A DNA stretch of 57,382 nt from Bacteroidales bacterium (GTDB taxonomy: Bacteria; Bacteroidota; Bacteroidia; Bacteroidales; UBA7960): positions 1 through 57,382 of the forward strand of contig SLCY01000027.1 of NCBI GenBank assembly GCA_007125585.1, written 5' to 3'. Numbering within the stretch: position 1 is the stretch's first letter; every line of letters begins with the position of its first letter. The translations under genes and the position numbers were made by a program. The notes beneath the pieces were generated by a model that was not told the DNA's origin, searched no databases, and worked only from the letters and a program-made list of their open reading frames with translations. Below, in pieces: positions 1 through 43,197 of the stretch.

Positions 1-252
1 ATCTCGTGTGGCCTCCCTCAAAGTATCGCCACTGAGCCTTCGCTTGCCCGCTTCAATAAACTCCTTGCTCCACTTGAAATAATTGTTTTGGTGAATGCCA
101 TATTTTCGGCACACTGCAGCGATGGTATCCTCACCTCGCAGCGCTTCCGAAACTATTTTAATCTTCTCCTCTGCCGTGAACTTACGACGGGTCTGTCGCT
201 TGATAGATTTTACAACCTGATCAGCACTTGGTTTCTTGTTCTTTTCTTCCAT
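1..252 (-). CDS. IS3-family transposase OrfA, N-terminal part (runs off the window)
   Basis: An open frame of 84 codons starts at an ATG (252-250) and is still open at base 1, so only the N-terminus is present. The protein begins MEEKNKKPSADQ and contains RRKFTAEEKIKIVSEAL, then CRKYGIHQNNYFKWSKEF. This is the helix-turn-helix of the IS3/IS911 OrfA (HTH_Tnp_1) family, which binds the insertion-sequence ends. OrfB, the DDE integrase, would lie to the left of the window. Whether the element is intact cannot be judged. The alternative is a stand-alone OrfA remnant. Confidence 0.88.
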   Translation of the reverse strand, partial: MEEKNKKPSADQVVKSIKRQTRRKFTAEEKIKIVSEALRGEDTIAAVCRKYGIHQNNYFKWSKEFIEAGKRRLSGDTLREATRD

Positions 253-517: not shown

Positions 518-2338
518 TTATTGTTCGAGGTCGATGTTTTGTTCCAGCACTTGCATGCGGCTTTTGCCCGTTATCCGGATTGTGTAATGGCTTTCCTGCA
601 TGCTGCGACGGTCGACAGGGATATCGTATGTGCCGGTAAACCAGGCCGGAATTGTGACCTTCCTTACCGTTTGTCCTTCGGGACAAATAAATGTTACCAC
701 ATAATCGTCTTGTTCGAGGATATTGAACGAAAGCAGGCCAATGGTGGGATCGGGTCCGTCGATAATGCGAATGGCGTCAACAGCTTTTTTCTGATTTCGG
801 GTTGTGCTGTCCGGAGAATATCGTGATACACTTTCTGTGCCAGTTGTGATGAATGGATCTTGCCCGCCCCGCATAAAGATATTTACGGTGCCAATTACAT
901 CCAGGACATCAATGGCACCGTCGTTGTTCACGTCTGCGTTGTCAAAGCAAAACGGTTCGGGAACATTCCCCATGAAGTGGTTTGTAATGGCAGCAACGTC
1001 AAGGACATCCACCACTTCATCGCCGTTGGCATCACCAGCAACGGAAGCAAGAAAAACATCGATGTTGATGTTCTCATTTGCAACTGTTATCTCGCCCGAA
1101 TAGGTTGCGTTACATAAGTGTTGAACTGAAAATGCATAAGTGCCTGGTTCCTGATCAATAAATTCATAATCGCCGGGTGTGTTTTGTTGTCCGTTCAGTG
1201 TTATAACTGCATTGTCCAGCGGTATACCACCGGTTGAGGAAACAGAAAACGAAATGGTAAACGGGCCCTGGTCGTCGATGGCTTGAAAAGGGGGCAACTG
1301 GTTGGTTATGCAATGAATTGCCCCTTCCCACCCGATCATTGCATTGCAGTCAATACCAATGATGGTTTTACCCGGCATTAGCGCTTCGTATGTGGAGAGA
1401 GCCGTCACATCCCGGTGGTCATTGTATATGGGTACGAGAACAGCATCATTCACAATGAGGCTGTTGATATATGTCTTCCAGTTCTGTGCTTTGGGGATTT
1501 GTGCAACCTGATATGTTTTATCCTCAGGGTGCTCAAGGGAATGTAAAATGGCAAGGTTGTCCTGCAGGATTGGGTAGTCATCATGCCATGGATCCACCGT
1601 ACTGATAATAAAAGTGGTGTCATTCAAAAGTTTGACCTGCATATCCAGGTGGCCCCAATAGTCGTTGCTCAACGCGCTGAACGTATGAATAGAGGTGATG
1701 CCCATGTATGTTTCCAGGATATTGTCTATTTCTTCTGTGGCGATGGAAGGGTTGTTGGTGTACAACCGGTCGGTGGCAAACATCTGGTTGTGGCTGTCAA
1801 CCAAATAGTTTCCCCCGTCAAAAATGATGTGGGAAAAATCGTAATAATTCAGGTTCCAGTAATTCGCCAGGCGCTCGGGCAGATCCTGGTCTGCATGACC
1901 GGTGGCCAGGTCGTCGAACCCTACGAATGCCAGCTCCCCATCATCGTAAATGCTGAACGGGCCATGATCCCGGATCCAGATCCTGTCACCATATACTTCT
2001 ATAAATACAATGTTGTCCATTGGCACTCCATGTGCCGTGAACGTGTTGATCATGTTTTGCTGGTGCCCGGTGTTGTTGGTTTGCAAAAATACGGTGGCCT
2101 GCGACTGTATCCCGTTGACCACGGCAGTGACAATCTGGTCGTACGATGAACTTCCGGGATTCCAATACATTACAACACCTGCGATGGTGTCGTACTCAGG
2201 TACTGTGCGGGGGTTCACCGGGATTTCCGTATTGCCCTTTTCAGTAGCATACACCAGGCACGCGGATGTCATGAATACGATCAGGGCAACTGACAGTCGG
2301 TAAAACTGATACCCTGATGGGCGCGGGAGGTCATTCAT
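518..2338 (-). CDS. Secreted peptidylarginine deiminase / agmatine deiminase family protein with dockerin-like module
   Basis: Guanidino-group-modifying enzyme of the PAD_porph/agmatine deiminase family, expected to hydrolyse arginine side chains or agmatine to citrulline-type products. From the start at 2338 (606 aa): signal peptide about 1-40 (…ACLVYA then TEKG), deiminase domain about 42-355, a beta domain, a dockerin-like Ca-binding pair of repeats about 435-487, and a C-terminal Ig-like domain about 505-606. Catalytic residues of the family are visible: D124 (RDHG), H230 and D232 (GHLD), N292 and C343 (AIHCITN). Their spacing closely follows Porphyromonas PPAD (D130, H236, D238, N297, C351). 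A longer frame reaches 2440, but a -7 promoter box lies inside it at 2399-2406, so I prefer the ATG at 2338. The C-terminal domain may be a divergent type IX sorting domain. The peptidyl versus free-agmatine substrate cannot be told from sequence; export favours proteins. Confidence 0.85.
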   Translation of the reverse strand: MNDLPRPSGYQFYRLSVALIVFMTSACLVYATEKGNTEIPVNPRTVPEYDTIAGVVMYWNPGSSSYDQIVTAVVNGIQSQATVFLQTNNTGHQQNMINTFTAHGVPMDNIVFIEVYGDRIWIRDHGPFSIYDDGELAFVGFDDLATGHADQDLPERLANYWNLNYYDFSHIIFDGGNYLVDSHNQMFATDRLYTNNPSIATEEIDNILETYMGITSIHTFSALSNDYWGHLDMQVKLLNDTTFIISTVDPWHDDYPILQDNLAILHSLEHPEDKTYQVAQIPKAQNWKTYINSLIVNDAVLVPIYNDHRDVTALSTYEALMPGKTIIGIDCNAMIGWEGAIHCITNQLPPFQAIDDQGPFTISFSVSSTGGIPLDNAVITLNGQQNTPGDYEFIDQEPGTYAFSVQHLCNATYSGEITVANENINIDVFLASVAGDANGDEVVDVLDVAAITNHFMGNVPEPFCFDNADVNNDGAIDVLDVIGTVNIFMRGGQDPFITTGTESVSRYSPDSTTRNQKKAVDAIRIIDGPDPTIGLLSFNILEQDDYVVTFICPEGQTVRKVTIPAWFTGTYDIPVDRRSMQESHYTIRITGKSRMQVLEQNIDLEQ

Positions 2339-18616: not shown

Positions 18617-19837
18617 ATGAAAGATTTGAAAAGACCCGATACCGACGTTCTGGATATCAACAATGATGTAAAATGGGTAGGGGTGATCGATTACGACATC
18701 GTCACCTTCGATGTGGTGATGGAAACAGAATATGGCACCACCTACAATTCTTATTTTATCAATGCAGAGAAGAAAACCTTAATAGAAACTTCCAAGGAGA
18801 AGTTCTGGGATGTCTATCTGGAGAAGCTGAAACAGGTGACCGATTTATCCGGATTGGAATATGTTGTTCTGAACCATACCGAACCGGATCACAGCGGCAA
18901 CCTTGCCAATGTGCTTGAGATGGCACCGGATGCCACCGTTGTGGGTACGCGCCTGGCCATACAGTATCTGAAAGACTTTCTCGGTAAAGAGTTCAGGCAT
19001 CTGGTGGTGAAAGACGGCGACACCCTCGATCTGGGCAACAAAACCCTCCGTTTTGTCGGGGCGCCCAACCTGCACTGGCCCGACAGTATGTATACATACC
19101 TGGAAGAGGACAGGCTGCTGTTTACTTGTGATTCCTTTGGGTGCCATTATGCACACCCTGATATGATTGACAATAAAGTAGGTGACTTCAGCGATGCTTT
19201 CAAATATTACTTTGATGTGATTCTGAAGCCTTTCAGCAAATTCATGCTGAAGGCCATCGACAAAATAAGGCCTCTCGAAATCAATGCGATACTTACGGGC
19301 CATGGCCCTTTGTTGCTGCATGACTGGAAAAAATGGGTCGACCGATCCGAACAGTATGCCCGGAATGCCTTGCAAACACCACAGGCAAACCACATCTTCA
19401 TACCCTATGTTTCTGCCTACCATAATACCGGAAAAATGGCTGAAGCCATCAGGGATGGAATCATGAGCACCGGCGACTTTACCGTGGAAATAGCCGATAT
19501 TGAAACCATGTCCCTTGGTGATTTGGACGAGAGGGTGGCAAAAAGCAGTGCCATCGTGGTTGGATGCCCCACCATCAACCAAAACATCCTGCTGCCTGTC
19601 TATAAACTGTTCGCGGTGATCAGCCCCATCCGCGACAACCGGAAGGTCGCCGGTGCCTTCGGTTCTTACGGCTGGAGCGGAGAAGCCGGAAAACTTATCA
19701 ACAACACCCTGGCGAATCTTAAACTTAATGTGCTAGGTGATGGGGTATTTGTTAAATTTACCCCCCATGAAGATGAATATGAGCTGTGTTGTAGCTATGG
19801 CAGGAAGATCGCCGGTGAGTTATTGAAAAAAGAATGA
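18617..19837 (+). CDS. Flavodiiron protein (A-type flavoprotein, O2/NO reductase)
   Basis: 406 aa FprA/ROO-type enzyme that reduces oxygen to water or NO to N2O with electrons from rubredoxin or a similar carrier. The N-terminal metallo-beta-lactamase-like domain has all the diiron ligands: H87, E89, D91 (NHTEPDH), H153, D172 and H229 (GHGP). The C-terminal flavodoxin-like domain (about 255-400) binds FMN (VSAYHNTGKMA and the GAFGSYGWSG block). It starts 76 bases after hydE. Together with HydE/F it fits protection of oxygen-sensitive hydrogenase chemistry. A second function as a NO reductase cannot be excluded. Confidence 0.94.
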   Translation: MKDLKRPDTDVLDINNDVKWVGVIDYDIVTFDVVMETEYGTTYNSYFINAEKKTLIETSKEKFWDVYLEKLKQVTDLSGLEYVVLNHTEPDHSGNLANVLEMAPDATVVGTRLAIQYLKDFLGKEFRHLVVKDGDTLDLGNKTLRFVGAPNLHWPDSMYTYLEEDRLLFTCDSFGCHYAHPDMIDNKVGDFSDAFKYYFDVILKPFSKFMLKAIDKIRPLEINAILTGHGPLLLHDWKKWVDRSEQYARNALQTPQANHIFIPYVSAYHNTGKMAEAIRDGIMSTGDFTVEIADIETMSLGDLDERVAKSSAIVVGCPTINQNILLPVYKLFAVISPIRDNRKVAGAFGSYGWSGEAGKLINNTLANLKLNVLGDGVFVKFTPHEDEYELCCSYGRKIAGELLKKE

Positions 19838-19855
19838 TTCAATGTTCGAAGTGTT

Positions 19856-20683
19856 TTGAAGTGGTTTAAAGACATAGGAATCCCATTGTTGCTTTCAGCA
19901 GCTTTGGTTGGTTGTGCAACCAGCCTGCAGCTTGCCAGCCGATTTGTGCTGGAAGAAACAGACATACATGTGCTGGTATTGCCTCCCGATAACCTGATCA
20001 AGTCTTTTGCCACCGAACACCCTGACAGCATTCCTCCCGACAGCATCATGGGCCCCGGGGACGCCAGGGCGCAATTCATCAGTGAAGTCAGCGATTCTGT
20101 TTTTATCAGCCATTTCATGAGTGCCCTGAATGGTCATCTTGACAGGCTTTATATCCAGGCTTACGGGCCTGATGATGCCGATGCGTTTTTTTCACTGGAA
20201 CAGCCTGCATATATCTTTCTTATTGCACAAATGGAGCTGTTTGAATATACCGAGAAGGAGTATTTCGAAGGCCGTTCGGGATGGAATCGCTATATGAGTA
20301 GTGTGGATATAAAGGTACTGGAAAACAATGTCTGGTTTGAATTCATGAAAGTCCACGACCCGGAGTTCGAGATGCAGGTGCTGTTCAATACACATGCCAC
20401 CAGTGATTATGTCGAAGGAAGATTTCTCAGGTTAAGTACCGGAGAGGTGGTGTTCAATCCAACAAAATACCTTCTGACAGAGGATGACCTTTATGACCTT
20501 GCCTATTTCTCAGGGAAGCAGAACGCACACAAGATCTTTGACCATCTTCTCAACCTGTATGTCCGGCGCGAATATGGAAGAGACCTCCCTTACTATTTTC
20601 ATTACGATATGCAAAGCCATTCGATCCTGGAACGTGATTATCCCCCATTCATCAGGATCAACGCCGCCGAAACAGAAGAGTGA
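19856..20683 (+). CDS. Lipoprotein of unknown function, TTG start
   Basis: 275 aa. The N-terminus MKWFKDIGIPLLLSAALVGCATS is a clear lipoprotein signal with lipobox LVGC. No ATG or GTG is available between the in-frame stop of the flavodiiron gene (19835-19837) and the signal peptide, so a TTG start at 19856 is the only reasonable choice. The mature part is acidic, aromatic-rich and without motifs that I recognise. It may be a Bacteroidota-specific envelope lipoprotein. It follows the flavodiiron gene by 18 bases, probably in the same transcript, and converges on tsaD with a 3-base gap. Confidence 0.8.
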   Translation: MKWFKDIGIPLLLSAALVGCATSLQLASRFVLEETDIHVLVLPPDNLIKSFATEHPDSIPPDSIMGPGDARAQFISEVSDSVFISHFMSALNGHLDRLYIQAYGPDDADAFFSLEQPAYIFLIAQMELFEYTEKEYFEGRSGWNRYMSSVDIKVLENNVWFEFMKVHDPEFEMQVLFNTHATSDYVEGRFLRLSTGEVVFNPTKYLLTEDDLYDLAYFSGKQNAHKIFDHLLNLYVRREYGRDLPYYFHYDMQSHSILERDYPPFIRINAAETEE

Positions 20684-20686
20684 ACG

Positions 20687-21703
20687 TCAGGCGCGGTACC
20701 GGGTGAACGGGGTTGTGTTAAGCGGTGCAAAATCAGACTTCAGGTATTTGTAATACCCTGCGATGGCAATCATGGCCGCGTTGTCGGTACAATATTCAAA
20801 CCGGGGAATGTAAACATTCCAGTTTCCCGCATCCTTTTCATCATAAAAAGCCTTTCTTAATCCGGAGTTGGCAGAAACACCACCCGCAATGGCAATATGG
20901 CGAATCCCTGTTTGCCTGGAGGCAGCCCGGACTTTGTTCATCAAGATCTCTACAATGGTGTACTGTATGGAGGCAGAAAGGTCATTCAAGTGGTTTTTGA
21001 TAAAATCCTTGTCCTCTTTGAGCTTGTCGCGCAAAAAATACAATATCGACGTTTTCAGTCCGCTGAAACTATAATCGAGCCCGGAAACCTGAGGGTGCGG
21101 GAACCTGAATGCCTGTGGATTGCCCTGTTGTGCGTACTGATCGATGAGCGGGCCGCCCGGATAAGGCAACCCCATGATCTTGGCTGTCTTGTCAAAAGCC
21201 TCACCGGCGGCATCATCAATGGTCTGACCAATGACCTCCATCTCATAATGACTTTTTACCAGCACGATCTGGGTATGTCCGCCCGACACAGTCAAACAAA
21301 GGAACGGAAAAGGAGGAACCTTTTTCTGAAATTCGTCTTCAATAAAATGTGCCAGAATATGGGCGTGCATGTGGTTGACAGTGATCAGGGGGATGCCCAG
21401 GGCCAGCGCGAAGGACTTGGCAAATGAAGACCCGACAAGCAAGGAACCAAGTAAACCAGGGCCATTGGTGAAAGCCACTGCATCAATCCTTTTTTTGTGT
21501 ATCTTTGCCTTTGATAAAGCATTGTCAATGACTGGAATAATGTTCTGCTGATGCGCCCTGGATGCCAGTTCGGGCACAACACCCCCAAAGTCCCTGTGAA
21601 CATGCTGATTGGCAATCAGATTGGCAAGAATTTTGCGGTCTTTAATAAGCGCAGCAGAAGTATCATCGCACGATGATTCAATGCCCAGTATATAAATGCT
21701 CAT
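20687..21703 (-). CDS. tsaD: tRNA N6-adenosine threonylcarbamoyltransferase
   Basis: Transfers the threonylcarbamoyl group from TC-AMP to A37 of ANN-decoding tRNAs, with TsaB and TsaE. 338 aa, normal for TsaD/YgjD. N-terminal ASKHA-fold ILGIESSCDDTSAAL; metal-binding H111 and H115 (HMHAHI); VSGGHTQIVLV; GEAFDKTAK; late GGVSANSGLR and FCTDNAAMIA-type ATP-binding block (YCTDNAAMIA). The ATG at 21703 is 31 bases from the start of the divergent tamB gene, so the promoters must overlap coding sequence. Confidence 0.97.
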   Translation of the reverse strand: MSIYILGIESSCDDTSAALIKDRKILANLIANQHVHRDFGGVVPELASRAHQQNIIPVIDNALSKAKIHKKRIDAVAFTNGPGLLGSLLVGSSFAKSFALALGIPLITVNHMHAHILAHFIEDEFQKKVPPFPFLCLTVSGGHTQIVLVKSHYEMEVIGQTIDDAAGEAFDKTAKIMGLPYPGGPLIDQYAQQGNPQAFRFPHPQVSGLDYSFSGLKTSILYFLRDKLKEDKDFIKNHLNDLSASIQYTIVEILMNKVRAASRQTGIRHIAIAGGVSANSGLRKAFYDEKDAGNWNVYIPRFEYCTDNAAMIAIAGYYKYLKSDFAPLNTTPFTRYRA

Positions 21704-21734
21704 GACAGTTCAAATCATTCCGGGGGTCAAATAA

Positions 21735-24700
21735 TTGCTGGAGAACAAAGGTATCAAAAAAAGGCGAAAAATATTGTTTTCCCTGCTGGCAGCGTTTTTA
21801 ATGCTTCCGCTGATCCTCTTGGCTTCACTCCGGAGCACCAAGGTCCAGACCTACCTGGTGGGACACCTCACAGAGTACCTCTCCAGGGAGCTTGGGACGG
21901 AACTTTCGGTGGGCGGTGTGGATATCCGCCTGCTTCGCAGCATTGTCCTGGTCGATGTAAAAATGAAAGACAGGCAGGGAAAACCACTGCTGGAAGTGCA
22001 AAGAATGGAGGTGGAGCTGGGAAAGATGTCATTTAATCAGCGACGGCTTTCCATCAATGAACTGCATTTCGAAGATGCCTTCCTCAATGTTTACAAAGAA
22101 ATAAACAACGACAGCTATAACTTCGGGTTTCTGATCGAGTATTTCTCCGGTGGGGAAAGAACAGGATCAACCGGCGCAAGGTGGGAGGTAATATGCGCCG
22201 CATTCAGGCTTACCAATACCTCCTTTTATCACCGCGACAAAAATATCCAGCCCAGAGAATATGGTTTCGACCCCGGAAACTTCTATGTAAATGATTTTAA
22301 CCTGGCAATGGATGACATCCTGCTCCAGGACAGTACCCTTTCGTTCCAACTGGACTATATGTTCTATAAAGAATCGTCCGGGTTTTTGCTGAGCGATCTG
22401 TCGGGCCACTTCTCCATCGGGCCGCATCAAACCAGTATTGATCATTTCAACTTCCGGTCTGAGACATCCGATCTTTTGCTGGATCTGACAGCCCGGTATG
22501 AGTCATTCACATCGGTGGAAGCATTTCTTTCCAGCCTTGATTATCATTTGAATATACAGGCCTCACAACTGGACCTGGCCGATATGGGCTATTTTTTCCC
22601 ACGCCTTTATGGGATAAAGGAAATACTCCGCGTTCAAGGGGAGTTTGAGGGGGGAAACGGAAACCTGTCCGCAAACGAGGTAATGTTGGAATATGGAGAG
22701 CATTCAAAGTTCCACGGTGGCTTTCACCTGACCGGGATGTTTGATTGGCCGCAATCGTCCCTTGATTTCAGGGTTGATAAGCTGCGTAGCAGCATGGAAG
22801 ATATCACGTCGATCCAATTGCCGGCAAACTGGGAGCGGCAAACACTCCAACCACCCGGTTATTTGTTCAACCTTGGAGAGTTTTCTTTCTCTGGGGGGCT
22901 TAACGGCTCTTTGACCGACTTAATGGCCGAAGGCAGCATGGATACGGATATCGGACAATTGAATGCCGATATCAAGCTGCACAAAGATCCGGGCGATGCA
23001 TTGTATCACTACCAGGGAACCCTCGGGATGGATCAGTTTCATATGGGGAAACTCTTTGAAAACAATGGGCTTGGAAACATTGACATGAAAGGTGACATCA
23101 GCGGTTCCGGCTTTTGCCCCGAAACCCTTGACCTGAACATCGACGGACACGTTGCGTCATTTGATGTTCTGGGCAACTTGTACGAAAACATCCAACTGTC
23201 GGGTGATTTTTTACACAGAAAATTCAATGGCTCCTTTCTGGTCGATGACCCAAACCTGTTTCTGGATTTCAGGGGGATGGTAGACTTTGAACAGGCCGTG
23301 CCCCTGTTCGATTTTGTGGCAAATATTGATCGGGCAAACCTTACCAAAATGAATGTATTTCAACGAGATACATTATATGACTCCACGCTGTCCGCCTATC
23401 TGAAGATCAATGCCCACGGAAGCTCCCTGGATGATCTTGATGGTGTGATCATCTTAAGCGATATACAGTATGCGGAGGCATCCCTGTTTGGTGGCGACCC
23501 GTTTAACGATCCGCCAGCCTATTCAACAGATAGCATCTACCTGCGCAATACCCTCTGGTCAAAAGACAATAAGCACCTGCGGTTTCGCTCTGATTTTCTG
23601 GATGCCGATCTGTATGGGAAGATCCATTTTGACCAATTGGCAAATGCTTTGCGACAAACCGCAAATGCATATATCCCTGCGCTTAACCTCAAAAACAATC
23701 GCCAAAAGGAGACGGATGAACATACACAGGAAATTGAGTTTTCTTTCCGTTTTAAAGATACAGAAGACCTTACCCGTCTTTTTTTCCCGACAGTTAGAAT
23801 ATCTCCGGATAGCTGGCTGAATGGATCATTTGGTTCATTGGGGCAAAATATTGTTGTTCAAGCACATGCCAGCCATTTATCTCTCTTTGGAAGAAGGTTT
23901 ATTGATTGGAACCTGTCGGGCAACCACACCGACGACCACTATGAATTATCGGTAAACAGCAGTAAACTGATGCTTTCGGATAGCCTGCATATGAATGACT
24001 TTGCAATGAAGACAATATGGGATAAGGATGAAGTGAGCCTGTCCCTTTTATGGAATGGGAAAGAGTATCCGGGCGACAACGGAGGAAACATACAGGGTGT
24101 TGCAAGGATCCACGACAAAAATTATTTTGACTTTTCTTTTCAGACCTCTCATGCCTGGTTAAATGGCGATCGCTGGGAACTCAACCTGGACAACAAAATC
24201 ATTGTTGACACCAACCGGGTGGAGATATTCAACCTGATGGTCTCACACAGGGATCAGTTTCTGATGGCAGAAGGTGTGCTGAGTGATGATCCTGAAGACA
24301 AGATGGGACTGTCTTTCGCGAATTTTGAGGTCGCATATACCGATCTGTTGATGGGAGAGAGCGATTTCGATTTCGGCGGGCGAATCAATGGTTATGTCTC
24401 CTTTACAGGTTTATATCAGCCCTTGAGTATAGGGGCGGAAATCCATGTTGAAGGCTTTTCTTTCAACCATGAGGTGATGGGTGACCTTACCCTGCAGAGT
24501 ATTTGGAACAATGATCAGCAAGCTTTCCTGGTTAACGGTGCGATCGCTGATGAAAAAAATGGCGAACCTGAACGCCCGGTGTCTGTTGACGGGAAAATAT
24601 ATACCGGCGACCGCGATCATAATTTTGATCTGGACATTGATGTGGTTGGCAAAACGATGTCGGTATGGGGACGGTATATGCAAAATTTTGCAGAGGATGT

Positions 24701-41280: not shown

Positions 41281-43197
41281 ATGTTGTGTTGCAAGCTATT
41301 GAATCTGAATAATATAATTAAACTGTTCGCCTACATCCTGTTTGTGTTCCCCATCCTGCATGGCACCGCACAGGAACTGGCCACCGGAAGGACCGCAAGT
41401 GAATACCTTGCAGAGAAAGGGGAGGTGTACTTCACTTTTATTAAACCTGAAAGAGAACGATTCGCGGAACTGACCAATACGGTCTCCATTGACAGGGTGG
41501 TTGCCGACAGCATCTTTGCCTATGCAGATTCCCGTGGATTTTCGCTGTTCCTGAAGATGGATATCCCGTATACCGTTCTGGATCATCCGGGCGAGGTGGA
41601 CTTTGATCTGAACATGTTGTCGCGCGGGGACTTGAAAAGCAAAGACTTGACTGACAGCTGGGATTTTTATCCAACCTATGAGGCCTATGTTGCGCTGATG
41701 TACGGTTTTGAGCAAGACTTTCCTGATCTGGTCGAAATTGTGAACATCGGACAGACAGTGATGGGCCGCGACCTATTGTTTGCCAAGATTTCTCCACAGG
41801 TAGAAACCAAAAGGTCTGTACCGCAATTTATGTACACCTCCACCATGCATGGTGATGAGACAGCTGGTTTTGTGCTGTCGTTACGCCTGATTCACCACCT
41901 GGTCACCAATTACGGTCAAGATGAAGCGATCACCGAACTGATGGACAATGTGGAACTATGGATTTGTCCCAATGAAAATCCTGATGGGACATACACCGAC
42001 GATAATTCAACTGTGTCGGGGGCTACCCGTGGCAATGCCAATGGCGTTGACCTGAACCGCAACTATCCCAACCCCGTGAACGACCCCTGGCATGCCCAGC
42101 AGCCGGAAACCACCGCCATGATCAGTTTTACCGACACCATGAACTTCATCATGTCGGCCAATATGCATGGAGGCATCGAGCTGGTGAACTTTCCCTTTGA
42201 CAGCTGGACATCATCGCAAAATAAACATGCCGACCACGACTGGTGGGAGTTTGTGATGTATGAGTATGTGGATACGGCACACGTCTATAGCCCTGACGGA
42301 TACATGACAGGCATGGGCGACGGGGTGACACATGGTGGCGACTGGTACGTCATTTACGGGAGTCGCCAGGATTATCTGAATTACTATAAAAGCTGCAGGG
42401 AGTTCACCCTGGAACTGAGCAACCAGAAGCTGCTGAACCCCGCCCTGTTGCCAGATCACTGGGAATACAATTACCGTTCGCTGATCAATTATATCCGGCA
42501 AGCAACCTATGGGGTGCATGGGCTTGTCTATGACAATGAAAACGGGACCCCTTTGTTTGCTGAAATCCTGATCCCCGACCATGATGACAACAATTCGGAG
42601 GTGCACACCTCCATGCCTCATGGAAATTATAACAGGCCACTCCTGGAGGGCATTTATGATATGCGTTTTTTGTCCAACGGCTACCCCACGCTCGACATTG
42701 ACGGGGTGTCTGTGATCAACCACCAGACCACCCACCTGAATGTGGCCCTCGGTGATGAGGTTGCAGGACAGACCTGGACAGTGGCGATCGGCAGAGAAGG
42801 GGAAGGGGAGATACTGCCTTTTGAAGGCATGCAGCTGTTTAACCAGGGAGCAAATGTGTTTCTCCACGCAATCCCTTTCGAATCCTGGGAGTTTGAGCAA
42901 TGGAATGTGAATGAAGTTTTTTATTCTGATGAAGCGAAGGCGACAGTTTCAATAACCGGAGACACCAACATTGACGCGGTATTTGTGCAAGGACATATCC
43001 CGGGCTCACTTCCGGGAGATGCAAACATTGATGGGGTGGTTGATGTATTGGACGTGATCACTATCATGGATTATTTCCTTGGCAACGCACCCGATCCATT
43101 CTGCTTTGAGAATGCCGATGTGAACCAGGATGGCGTCATTGATGTTCTGGATGCCATTGGCACTGTCAATATCTACATCAACCAAAAAGACAGGTGA
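41281..43197 (+). CDS. Secreted M14 zinc carboxypeptidase with InlB-like repeat and C-terminal dockerin-like module
   Basis: 638 aa from the ATG at 41281 (a GTG lies two codons upstream). Signal peptide about 1-30 (…HGTAQELAT). M14 domain about 120-400: zinc ligands H190 and E193 (MHGDETAG) and H296 (ANMHGGIEL), substrate-binding region GVDLNRNYPNP and catalytic E378 (FTLELSNQK). A carboxypeptidase-regulatory-like beta domain (about 405-490) follows, then a divergent InlB/BACON-like beta repeat (about 500-575), and a dockerin-like Ca-binding pair (579-634) with GDANIDG and DVNQDG. The tail is almost the same as that in the deiminase at 518-2338 (39 of 55 residues by eye). It lies 23 bases after dapA on the same strand but may have its own promoter. 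Confidence 0.9.
   Translation: MLCCKLLNLNNIIKLFAYILFVFPILHGTAQELATGRTASEYLAEKGEVYFTFIKPERERFAELTNTVSIDRVVADSIFAYADSRGFSLFLKMDIPYTVLDHPGEVDFDLNMLSRGDLKSKDLTDSWDFYPTYEAYVALMYGFEQDFPDLVEIVNIGQTVMGRDLLFAKISPQVETKRSVPQFMYTSTMHGDETAGFVLSLRLIHHLVTNYGQDEAITELMDNVELWICPNENPDGTYTDDNSTVSGATRGNANGVDLNRNYPNPVNDPWHAQQPETTAMISFTDTMNFIMSANMHGGIELVNFPFDSWTSSQNKHADHDWWEFVMYEYVDTAHVYSPDGYMTGMGDGVTHGGDWYVIYGSRQDYLNYYKSCREFTLELSNQKLLNPALLPDHWEYNYRSLINYIRQATYGVHGLVYDNENGTPLFAEILIPDHDDNNSEVHTSMPHGNYNRPLLEGIYDMRFLSNGYPTLDIDGVSVINHQTTHLNVALGDEVAGQTWTVAIGREGEGEILPFEGMQLFNQGANVFLHAIPFESWEFEQWNVNEVFYSDEAKATVSITGDTNIDAVFVQGHIPGSLPGDANIDGVVDVLDVITIMDYFLGNAPDPFCFENADVNQDGVIDVLDAIGTVNIYINQKDR

Follow-up and report, generated by a model that had tools for sequence, protein, structure and literature searches.

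Shared type I dockerins on a deiminase and a carboxypeptidase suggest a cohesin-dockerin protein-processing complex in a Bacteroidales genome

The window analysed here (57,382 nt) is the entire contig SLCY01000027.1 (C80) of a draft Bacteroidales genome (2.57 Mb, 120 contigs, 96.5% complete) and carries genes for two secreted enzymes, a deiminase and an M14 carboxypeptidase, that share a type I dockerin. Both enzymes are probably members of a cohesin-dockerin protein-processing complex anchored through the type IX secretion system (T9SS), with binding itself predicted from sequence. In the same genome four further enzymes bear this dockerin, and six proteins between them hold at least eight cohesin-like modules, with a T9SS tail on four of these six; in relatives, dockerins co-occur with cohesins, and in three enzyme families they take the place of the T9SS C-terminal domain (CTD). 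The host is free-living and a distant relative of bacteria associated with gum disease. G000 denotes the window's own genome and other G numbers its relatives; C numbers are contigs and L numbers fetched loci.

Dockerins and cohesins of the genome

The dockerin of the deiminase spans residues 434–491 (866..1039, minus strand; 33.5 bits to PF00404, cut-off 22.9, also found in the search of the whole genome; Dockerin_1 Pfam match at residues 434–481, 4.8e-8), and that of the carboxypeptidase is C-terminal (43012..43182, plus strand; 31.3 bits; Pfam match at residues 578–625, 2.4e-7; 2 residues beyond the profile match). Both scores identify as a type I dockerin what the preliminary description of this DNA had called a dockerin-like module. 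Where it had counted 39 matches over 55 positions, ungapped identity of the modules is 39/58 (best of 20,000 shuffles, 16); the two calcium-type loops that it saw are present in both modules, although loop 1 in the deiminase has the sequence DANGDE, in which E replaces the usual G.

Searching the genome with PF00404 gave 13 matches at E ≤ 1, six of them over the cut-off: subtilases on C99 and C78 (the latter cut by the contig end), a C26 deiminase related to PPAD of Porphyromonas gingivalis, a PETase-like hydrolase on C63 and the two window enzymes (the window deiminase being of a second type). All six modules sit in proteins with an enzyme domain and have 22 invariant columns in common, with V-L at both putative recognition positions, assigned after those of cellulosomal dockerins. 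A profile of the six copies matches a solved dockerin (2y3n_B, 1.6e-7). The protein ends 0–3 residues past the dockerin in five of the six carriers, and only the window deiminase extends further, by 114 residues; among the 46 tails in the genome that score over the cut-off for a T9SS CTD (TIGR04183 or PF18962), none belongs to a dockerin carrier. A 257-aa protein on C11 is borderline and was left uncounted (18.2 bits at its best place, 23.5 for the whole protein against the cut-off of 22.9; E 0.0047 against a custom dockerin profile; loops of a different type), as were weak PF00404 matches on C77, C29 and C17 (two), by eye in large outer-membrane TonB-type proteins, and at C78:7280, epimerase-like by eye.

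The preliminary description had proposed searching the genome for cohesins and for other carriers of the module, and both exist: six dockerin proteins and the six cohesin-bearing ones. Genome-wide cohesin searches used PF00963 and a profile of a second kind of cohesin, the profile of the first kind being applied to fetched loci only, and the count of eight modules is a lower bound. PF00963 matches lie on C119 (46.2 bits, cut-off 24.1) and C74. Built without seeds from this genome, the first-kind profile matches the C119 protein at three places (E 1.6e-12 to 5.9e-12) and C74a (3.6e-18) and C74:456-1145 (5.7e-11) at one place each; with own-genome seeds included it matches type I cohesin structures from cellulosomes (5nrm, 8e-12; 1ohz, 6.6e-9). 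The C119 protein (1261 aa) combines three cohesins, two CarboxypepD_reg stalks and a T9SS tail and fits a non-catalytic multi-cohesin scaffoldin, with no enzyme family in Pfam at 0.01. C74a carries twelve InlB repeats and a T9SS tail, and just upstream of it C74:456-1145 (230 aa) ends in a hydrophobic stretch that by eye may be a membrane anchor.

Cohesin-like modules of the second kind are present in C78, C74b and C84, the first two being detected without own-genome seeds as well; C78 and C84 have T9SS tails and C74b (203 aa) has none. Their profile matches scaffoldin cohesins weakly (3l8q, 2e-4; 5n5p, 0.001) and the first-kind profile in hhalign (91.7%), while C74b itself scores 0.0004 against PF00963, under the cut-off. 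No carbohydrate-binding module (CBM) was reported by Pfam on the scanned cohesin proteins. On C78 the cohesin-CTD gene (19446-20660, minus strand) lies directly downstream of the dockerin subtilase gene (20781-24071, minus strand), and the T9SS translocon protein SprA is encoded at full length on C70. Two short cohesin proteins, C74:456-1145 and G013:C127:2471-3214, have a proline-rich PLxxW motif followed by a hydrophobic end, which by eye has the look of a sortase-like anchor. The one named relative found, the Bacteroidales metagenome-assembled genome CSSed10_80, encodes a cohesin protein that is 64% identical to the C119 protein in the best segment; DUF5689, of unknown function, also occurs in cohesin proteins of G000 C119 and CSSed10_80 (L146).

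Assembly of dockerin and cohesin proteins in the periplasm or on shed vesicles, instead of at the cell surface, would suit the signal-peptide-like N-termini seen by eye in five of the six dockerin enzymes (the one on C78 is cut by the contig end), the lack of a CTD over the cut-off on these enzymes and the possible membrane anchor of C74:456-1145, but is very improbable given four cohesin carriers with T9SS tails and the many orthologous enzymes that are T9SS cargo by their CTD.

Dockerins, cohesins and T9SS tails in relatives

Of the 59 genomes compared, own genome included, 12 have dockerins (E ≤ 1e-5), 22 have Pfam cohesins (E ≤ 0.01) and nine have both; the second-kind profile has matches in 16. 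All 12 dockerin genomes have some cohesin, compared with 16 of the 47 others (Fisher p 2.7e-5). The two modules are also neighbours: of 93 dockerin matches (95 rows, less two in G027 that overlapped a first match), 16 have a cohesin match no more than 4 kb away, where 1.1 are expected and none of 200,000 simulations gave as many. Three of these pairs are in the same open frame and 13 in neighbouring genes, and at least one pair occurs in 11 of the 12 genomes (neighbouring genes in 10). Near-identical cohesin and dockerin proteins in G022 and G032, which are of different genera (L118 versus L119/L120; G022:C170, G032:C152/C224), may reflect recent transfer or mis-binned contigs, and these two genomes are therefore perhaps not independent.

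Within the window's genus, 36 dockerin proteins were scanned with Pfam (G007:C57, 57 aa at a contig end, the weak G013:C45 and G007:C154 being left out). They comprise five subtilases, four M14 carboxypeptidases, eight PAD_porph deiminases, two C25 (gingipain-family) peptidases and one PETase-like protein; the other 16, several cut by contig ends, have no clear enzyme family at threshold, one of them containing a putative carbohydrate metabolism domain. None of the 36 has a glycoside hydrolase at the Pfam thresholds used. Subtilase (S8), M14, PPAD-type and window-type deiminase are all docked in G000, G005 and G007, and all but M14 in G020. The pairing of carboxypeptidase and PPAD-type deiminase put forward in the preliminary description thus recurs among the docked enzymes of three genomes within the genus, with the C26 enzyme as the PPAD type here. 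Several of these genes are clustered: G020 C211 has a same-strand row of cohesin, PPAD-dockerin and subtilase-dockerin genes; on G005 C175 the M14 and subtilase dockerin genes adjoin; on G001 C191 the gene after M14-dockerin, on the same strand, encodes a C25 peptidase that has both a second-kind cohesin and a T9SS tail; and on C39 of G037, from another family of the order, a PPAD-dockerin gene lies one gene from that of a C25 peptidase bearing a dockerin as well as a T9SS tail. A 4319-aa open frame in G027 (C5:19078-32034; L222) has an N-terminal second-kind cohesin and a T9SS tail and lies directly behind the gene of a protein with a dockerin, an SDGTL domain (see below) and a CTD.

The module could instead be an ordinary calcium-binding stabiliser or spacer, binding nothing in trans and spread across secreted enzymes by domain shuffling. 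Noncellulosomal dockerin-like modules were reportedly described by Peer et al. in 2009, and a Pfam cohesin occurs without a dockerin in 13 of the 59 genomes, so the two are not obligate partners. Nevertheless, co-occurrence and adjacency with cohesin genes, the C-terminal position of the module in five of six carriers, recognition positions that are uniform within the genome and its replacing a T9SS CTD in the enzymes of three families make such a role unlikely.

That replacement is apparent from comparison of protein ends: in three enzyme families the dockerin, as judged by profile and sequence matches, stands in for the T9SS sorting domain of orthologues. The PPAD family (36 rows: 30 of the best-matching loci and six others) ends in a T9SS CTD in 25 cases, in a dockerin in six and in something else in three, two being cut by the locus end. 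Among 30 M14 rows there are 21 in which a profile recognises a CTD (in one case truncated at the locus end), four with a dockerin, two with a weak CTD-like tail and three that are cut, and the 13 rows of window-type deiminases divide into seven, four and two with CTD, with dockerin and cut, respectively. No dockerin row of the three families has a CTD at threshold. On quick trees the dockerin label has to change on starred branches at least twice for PPAD (three times by parsimony), at least twice for M14 (four) and at least once for the window type (two); G020 holds both window-type forms, with a CTD end (C342) and a dockerin end (C116). Two further PPAD orthologues, L189 and L190 (G143, G362), have a calcium-loop-like tail (DGD.DG...GDK...VW...SQVP) that by profile is neither dockerin nor CTD.

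In these families a CTD behind the dockerin then seems, from the remnants present, to decay. The 114-residue tail of the window deiminase contains a degenerate T9SS CTD (residues ~515-596; 551..796, minus strand), with dockerin and stalk N-terminal to it: with a profile of the CTDs of six orthologues the tail reaches 59.7 bits (E 1.1e-20 for a single sequence searched), compared with 9.5 bits for the best of 5,000 shuffles, but with a general CTD profile only 12.4 bits. A structure model of this C-terminus is weak (mean pLDDT 48.6, last 90 residues mostly 62-82), and Foldseek returned mainly generic Ig folds and glucuronidases for it. In G005 and G020 the docked subtilases have a post-dockerin domain that precedes the CTD in other proteins; the G005 protein stops after this domain, and the G020 protein keeps beyond it only a stretch resembling the final portion of a CTD. 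Such replacement does not hold for dockerin proteins at large: among 74 fetched, 44 end ≤7 residues past the dockerin and 25 have at least 180 residues behind it, the longer tails containing ~110 residues with the motif SDGTL (absent in G037) and then a CTD. The SDGTL domain occurs in 11 of the 59 genomes, 10 of which are dockerin genomes (in G000 such an end, on C16, is cut by the contig end), and matches the second cohesin kind (P 3.6e-5, 71% probability) but not the first (3%); it may be a trimmed, third cohesin-like domain.

The exchange of tails could also mean that the dockerin is itself a sorting signal, read directly by the T9SS or another outer-membrane machine with no cohesin partner, and the 27 judgeable M14 tails (4 dockerin, 21 CTD, 2 weak CTD-like) are in line with this. 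We consider it improbable, as the module is a clear two-loop dockerin, 24 of the 74 dockerin proteins have another domain plus a CTD-type motif C-terminal to it, which would be redundant, and CTDs are beta-sandwiches, unlike dockerins (PMC11285876). A somewhat different possibility, which we advance only tentatively, is that the dockerin serves as a transferable export ticket: enzymes lacking a CTD would bind cohesin-CTD carriers in the periplasm and leave with them via the T9SS. The sorting signal for docked enzymes might then be supplied in trans by the cohesin carrier, a doubtful arrangement that would, however, explain the dockerin in place of a CTD in orthologous enzymes, the decayed or lost CTD behind the dockerin (window deiminase; G005 and G020 subtilases) and the neighbouring dockerin and cohesin-CTD genes. 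The tail swap partly favours the novel surface-sorting signal that the preliminary description had offered as an alternative, and poses the question of whether a dockerin can replace a T9SS sorting domain and, if it can, whether the signal comes from its cohesin partner.

The deiminases and the carboxypeptidase

The window deiminase gene (518..2338; the plus strand of this interval contains stops) is on the minus strand and encodes 606 aa of the window-type PAD_porph family (PF04371, 6.2e-45), with orthologues of 62-79% identity in relatives. Its catalytic domain (residues 59-349; 1292..2164, minus strand; Pfam PAD_porph 6.2e-45 and residue comparison with PPAD) is followed by a CarboxypepD_reg-like stalk that precedes the dockerin (1049..1270, minus strand, approximate limits); the stalk scores 12 bits in Pfam and aligns with that of the C26 deiminase (32.8 bits, over the Pfam cut-off). 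The catalytic Cys, His, two Asp and Asn of the PAD_porph superfamily are present. Ten PPAD residues named in PMC4487231 were mapped through the C26-PPAD alignment and compared: the equivalents of W127, D130, G182, Y233, H236, D238, N297 and C351 are kept, and those of R152 and R154 are A and G. In all four window-type proteins compared, 8/10 residues are kept and the Arg152/Arg154 sites are Ala and Gly or Asn. In PPAD, R152 is indispensable, and R152 and R154 bind the C-terminal carboxylate of the substrate (PMC4487231). Citrullination of C-terminal arginine is therefore not predicted for the window deiminase, and the label PPAD-like given to it in the preliminary description was dropped. The enzyme should not depend on the substrate's C-terminal carboxylate; agmatine and free or internal arginine are candidate substrates.

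The PPAD orthologue of the genome, by alignment, is instead the second dockerin deiminase, on C26, which matches P. gingivalis PPAD (4yt9) over residues 52-463, including the catalytic and Ig-like parts (2.2e-115), agrees with it at 10/10 checked catalytic and substrate residues, and should therefore citrullinate C-terminal arginine. Identity is 61-70% within the window type and 57-69% within the PPAD type, and 29-35% between the two families. Matches to the C26 enzyme (E ≤ 1e-30) were found in 123 of 344 genomes of the order, with ~30-66% identity outside its own genome. PPAD-like deiminases are thus widespread in the Bacteroidales, contrasting with a statement in PMC4585897 that P. gingivalis is the only known prokaryote expressing a PAD. 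In an even sample of the order, with only four other members of the genus listed, no match to the window-type deiminase reached E 1e-50 in the 343 genomes besides its own; the set of relatives did yield it.

The carboxypeptidase gene (41281..43197, plus strand; PF00246, 1.7e-48) encodes 638 aa, with an M14 catalytic domain (residues 137-398; 41689..42474; Pfam Peptidase_M14 1.7e-48 and structure alignment), a CarboxypepD_reg domain (residues 412-490; 42514..42750; 22.7 bits, under the Pfam cut-off) and an InlB-type repeat (Flg_new_2, residues 500-570; 42778..42990; PF18998, 1.1e-5, 25.8 bits) ahead of the dockerin, all on the plus strand. Its closest solved structures are carboxypeptidases M, D and N, and its MHGDET, DLNRN and MHGG...NFPFD motifs and the Glu of ELS align with those of carboxypeptidases M and D. 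These motifs correspond to the zinc, carboxylate and catalytic Glu sites of such enzymes, and in their numbering the Asp of NFPFD falls at the S1' position, which confers selectivity for C-terminal Arg and Lys. By these motifs, the enzyme is classed as a regulatory (N/E) type, basic-residue carboxypeptidase.

The proposed complex and known systems

In the complex that we consider probable, the dockerins would bind the genome's cohesins in a calcium-dependent manner, so that subtilases, the PPAD-type deiminase, the second deiminase and the basic-residue carboxypeptidase would be held together at the cell surface, anchored via the T9SS tails of the cohesin proteins. The enzymes could then act in sequence: a subtilase would cut proteins first, after which the carboxypeptidase would remove C-terminal Arg or Lys, or PPAD would convert C-terminal Arg to citrulline, with the products feeding amino-acid and nitrogen uptake. 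If so, cohesin-dockerin assembly would extend to protein-processing enzymes of Bacteroidales, and PPAD, known mainly through work on rheumatoid arthritis, would be placed in an environmental enzyme complex, pointing to a nutritional role of C-terminal citrullination.

Several observations weigh against a complex of this kind. The dockerin enzymes have no CTD over the cut-off and would need some other route out of the cell, and the dockerin-cohesin pairing is predicted for the two sets of modules, not for individual pairs. The co-occurrence is weaker for Pfam cohesins alone (9/12 versus 13/47, p 0.0055), and neither it nor the adjacency statistic takes account of relatedness. Seeds of the second-kind profile came from G000, G002, G022 and G037, several from loci beside dockerins; pairs also occur in genomes without seeds (G001, G005, G007, G019, G020, G027, G032). 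Cohesin-like domains in 16 of 47 dockerin-free relatives imply another role for cohesins there, and the 24 of 74 proteins with a CTD-type motif behind the dockerin mean that one protein may carry both. Modelling of a cohesin gave a structure of low confidence (mean pLDDT 50), for which the best Foldseek E was 0.0011, although cohesins or cellulosome cohesin complexes make up 24 of its top 29 rows. In the window itself the deiminase and carboxypeptidase genes are 39 kb apart amid housekeeping genes (named by eye), and neither PF00963 nor the second-kind profile has a cohesin match on C80. Finally, one relative, CSSed10_80, suggests a soda-lake habitat of the lineage, the string CSSed10 appearing in soda-lake sediment papers; this habitat, if the lineage's, would be awkward for dockerins because divalent cations are scarce in soda lakes (PMC4766312).

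Comparison with described systems places the assembly among known kinds. The clostridial cellulosome has type I dockerins on its enzymes and type I cohesins on a multi-cohesin scaffoldin. The present genome has the same type I dockerins on enzymes and a multi-cohesin scaffoldin (C119); it differs in the absence of glycoside hydrolases from the 36 genus carriers and of CBMs from the scanned cohesin proteins, in the T9SS tail as anchor and in binding that is predicted. Closer among published cases is the cellulosome-like complex predicted for Candidatus Stygibacter (Cloacimonadota), for which protein degradation was proposed (PMC8542988): it too has C-terminal dockerins on S8 and C25 peptidases and a scaffoldin-like protein with tandem cohesins and a conserved T9SS-type C-terminal domain. 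It belongs to another phylum, with docked GH18 and GH57 enzymes and CBMs on the scaffoldin, and the parts of that report drawn on here name no deiminase or M14 enzyme and make no dockerin-versus-CTD comparison of orthologues (PMC8542988). The planctosome of Nemodlikiaceae (Planctomycetes) is likewise a predicted cohesin-dockerin complex for polypeptide degradation with an M14 carboxypeptidase, but its M14 enzyme is of subfamily A and accompanied by M12B, its model has lamin-tail domain anchoring, and the portions of the paper used here name neither T9SS nor deiminase (PMC6461901). Given these two predictions, the kind of complex is already known at the prediction level. A docked deiminase/protease combination was not found described in the titles and abstract openings of the matching papers in the open-licence library searched.

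P. gingivalis itself offers a parallel, as the C26 deiminase matches PPAD in both domains and all ten residues, although PPAD carries a T9SS CTD and not a dockerin, and subtilases are the proteases docked in this genome; for P. gingivalis it has been suggested that gingipains and PPAD, which acts after them, are co-localised on the surface (PMC4487231). As to Bacteroidota in general, one rumen Bacteroidetes genome without cohesins or dockerins was called consistent with other Bacteroidetes genomes (PMC5831590), and some Bacteroidota single-cell genomes have dockerins, a cohesin being reported only in a Christensenellales (PMC10266427).

At the left end of the window, the start of an HTH_Tnp_1 transposase gene (1-252, minus strand) runs off the contig end and adjoins the deiminase gene; contig C80 thus breaks at a mobile element.

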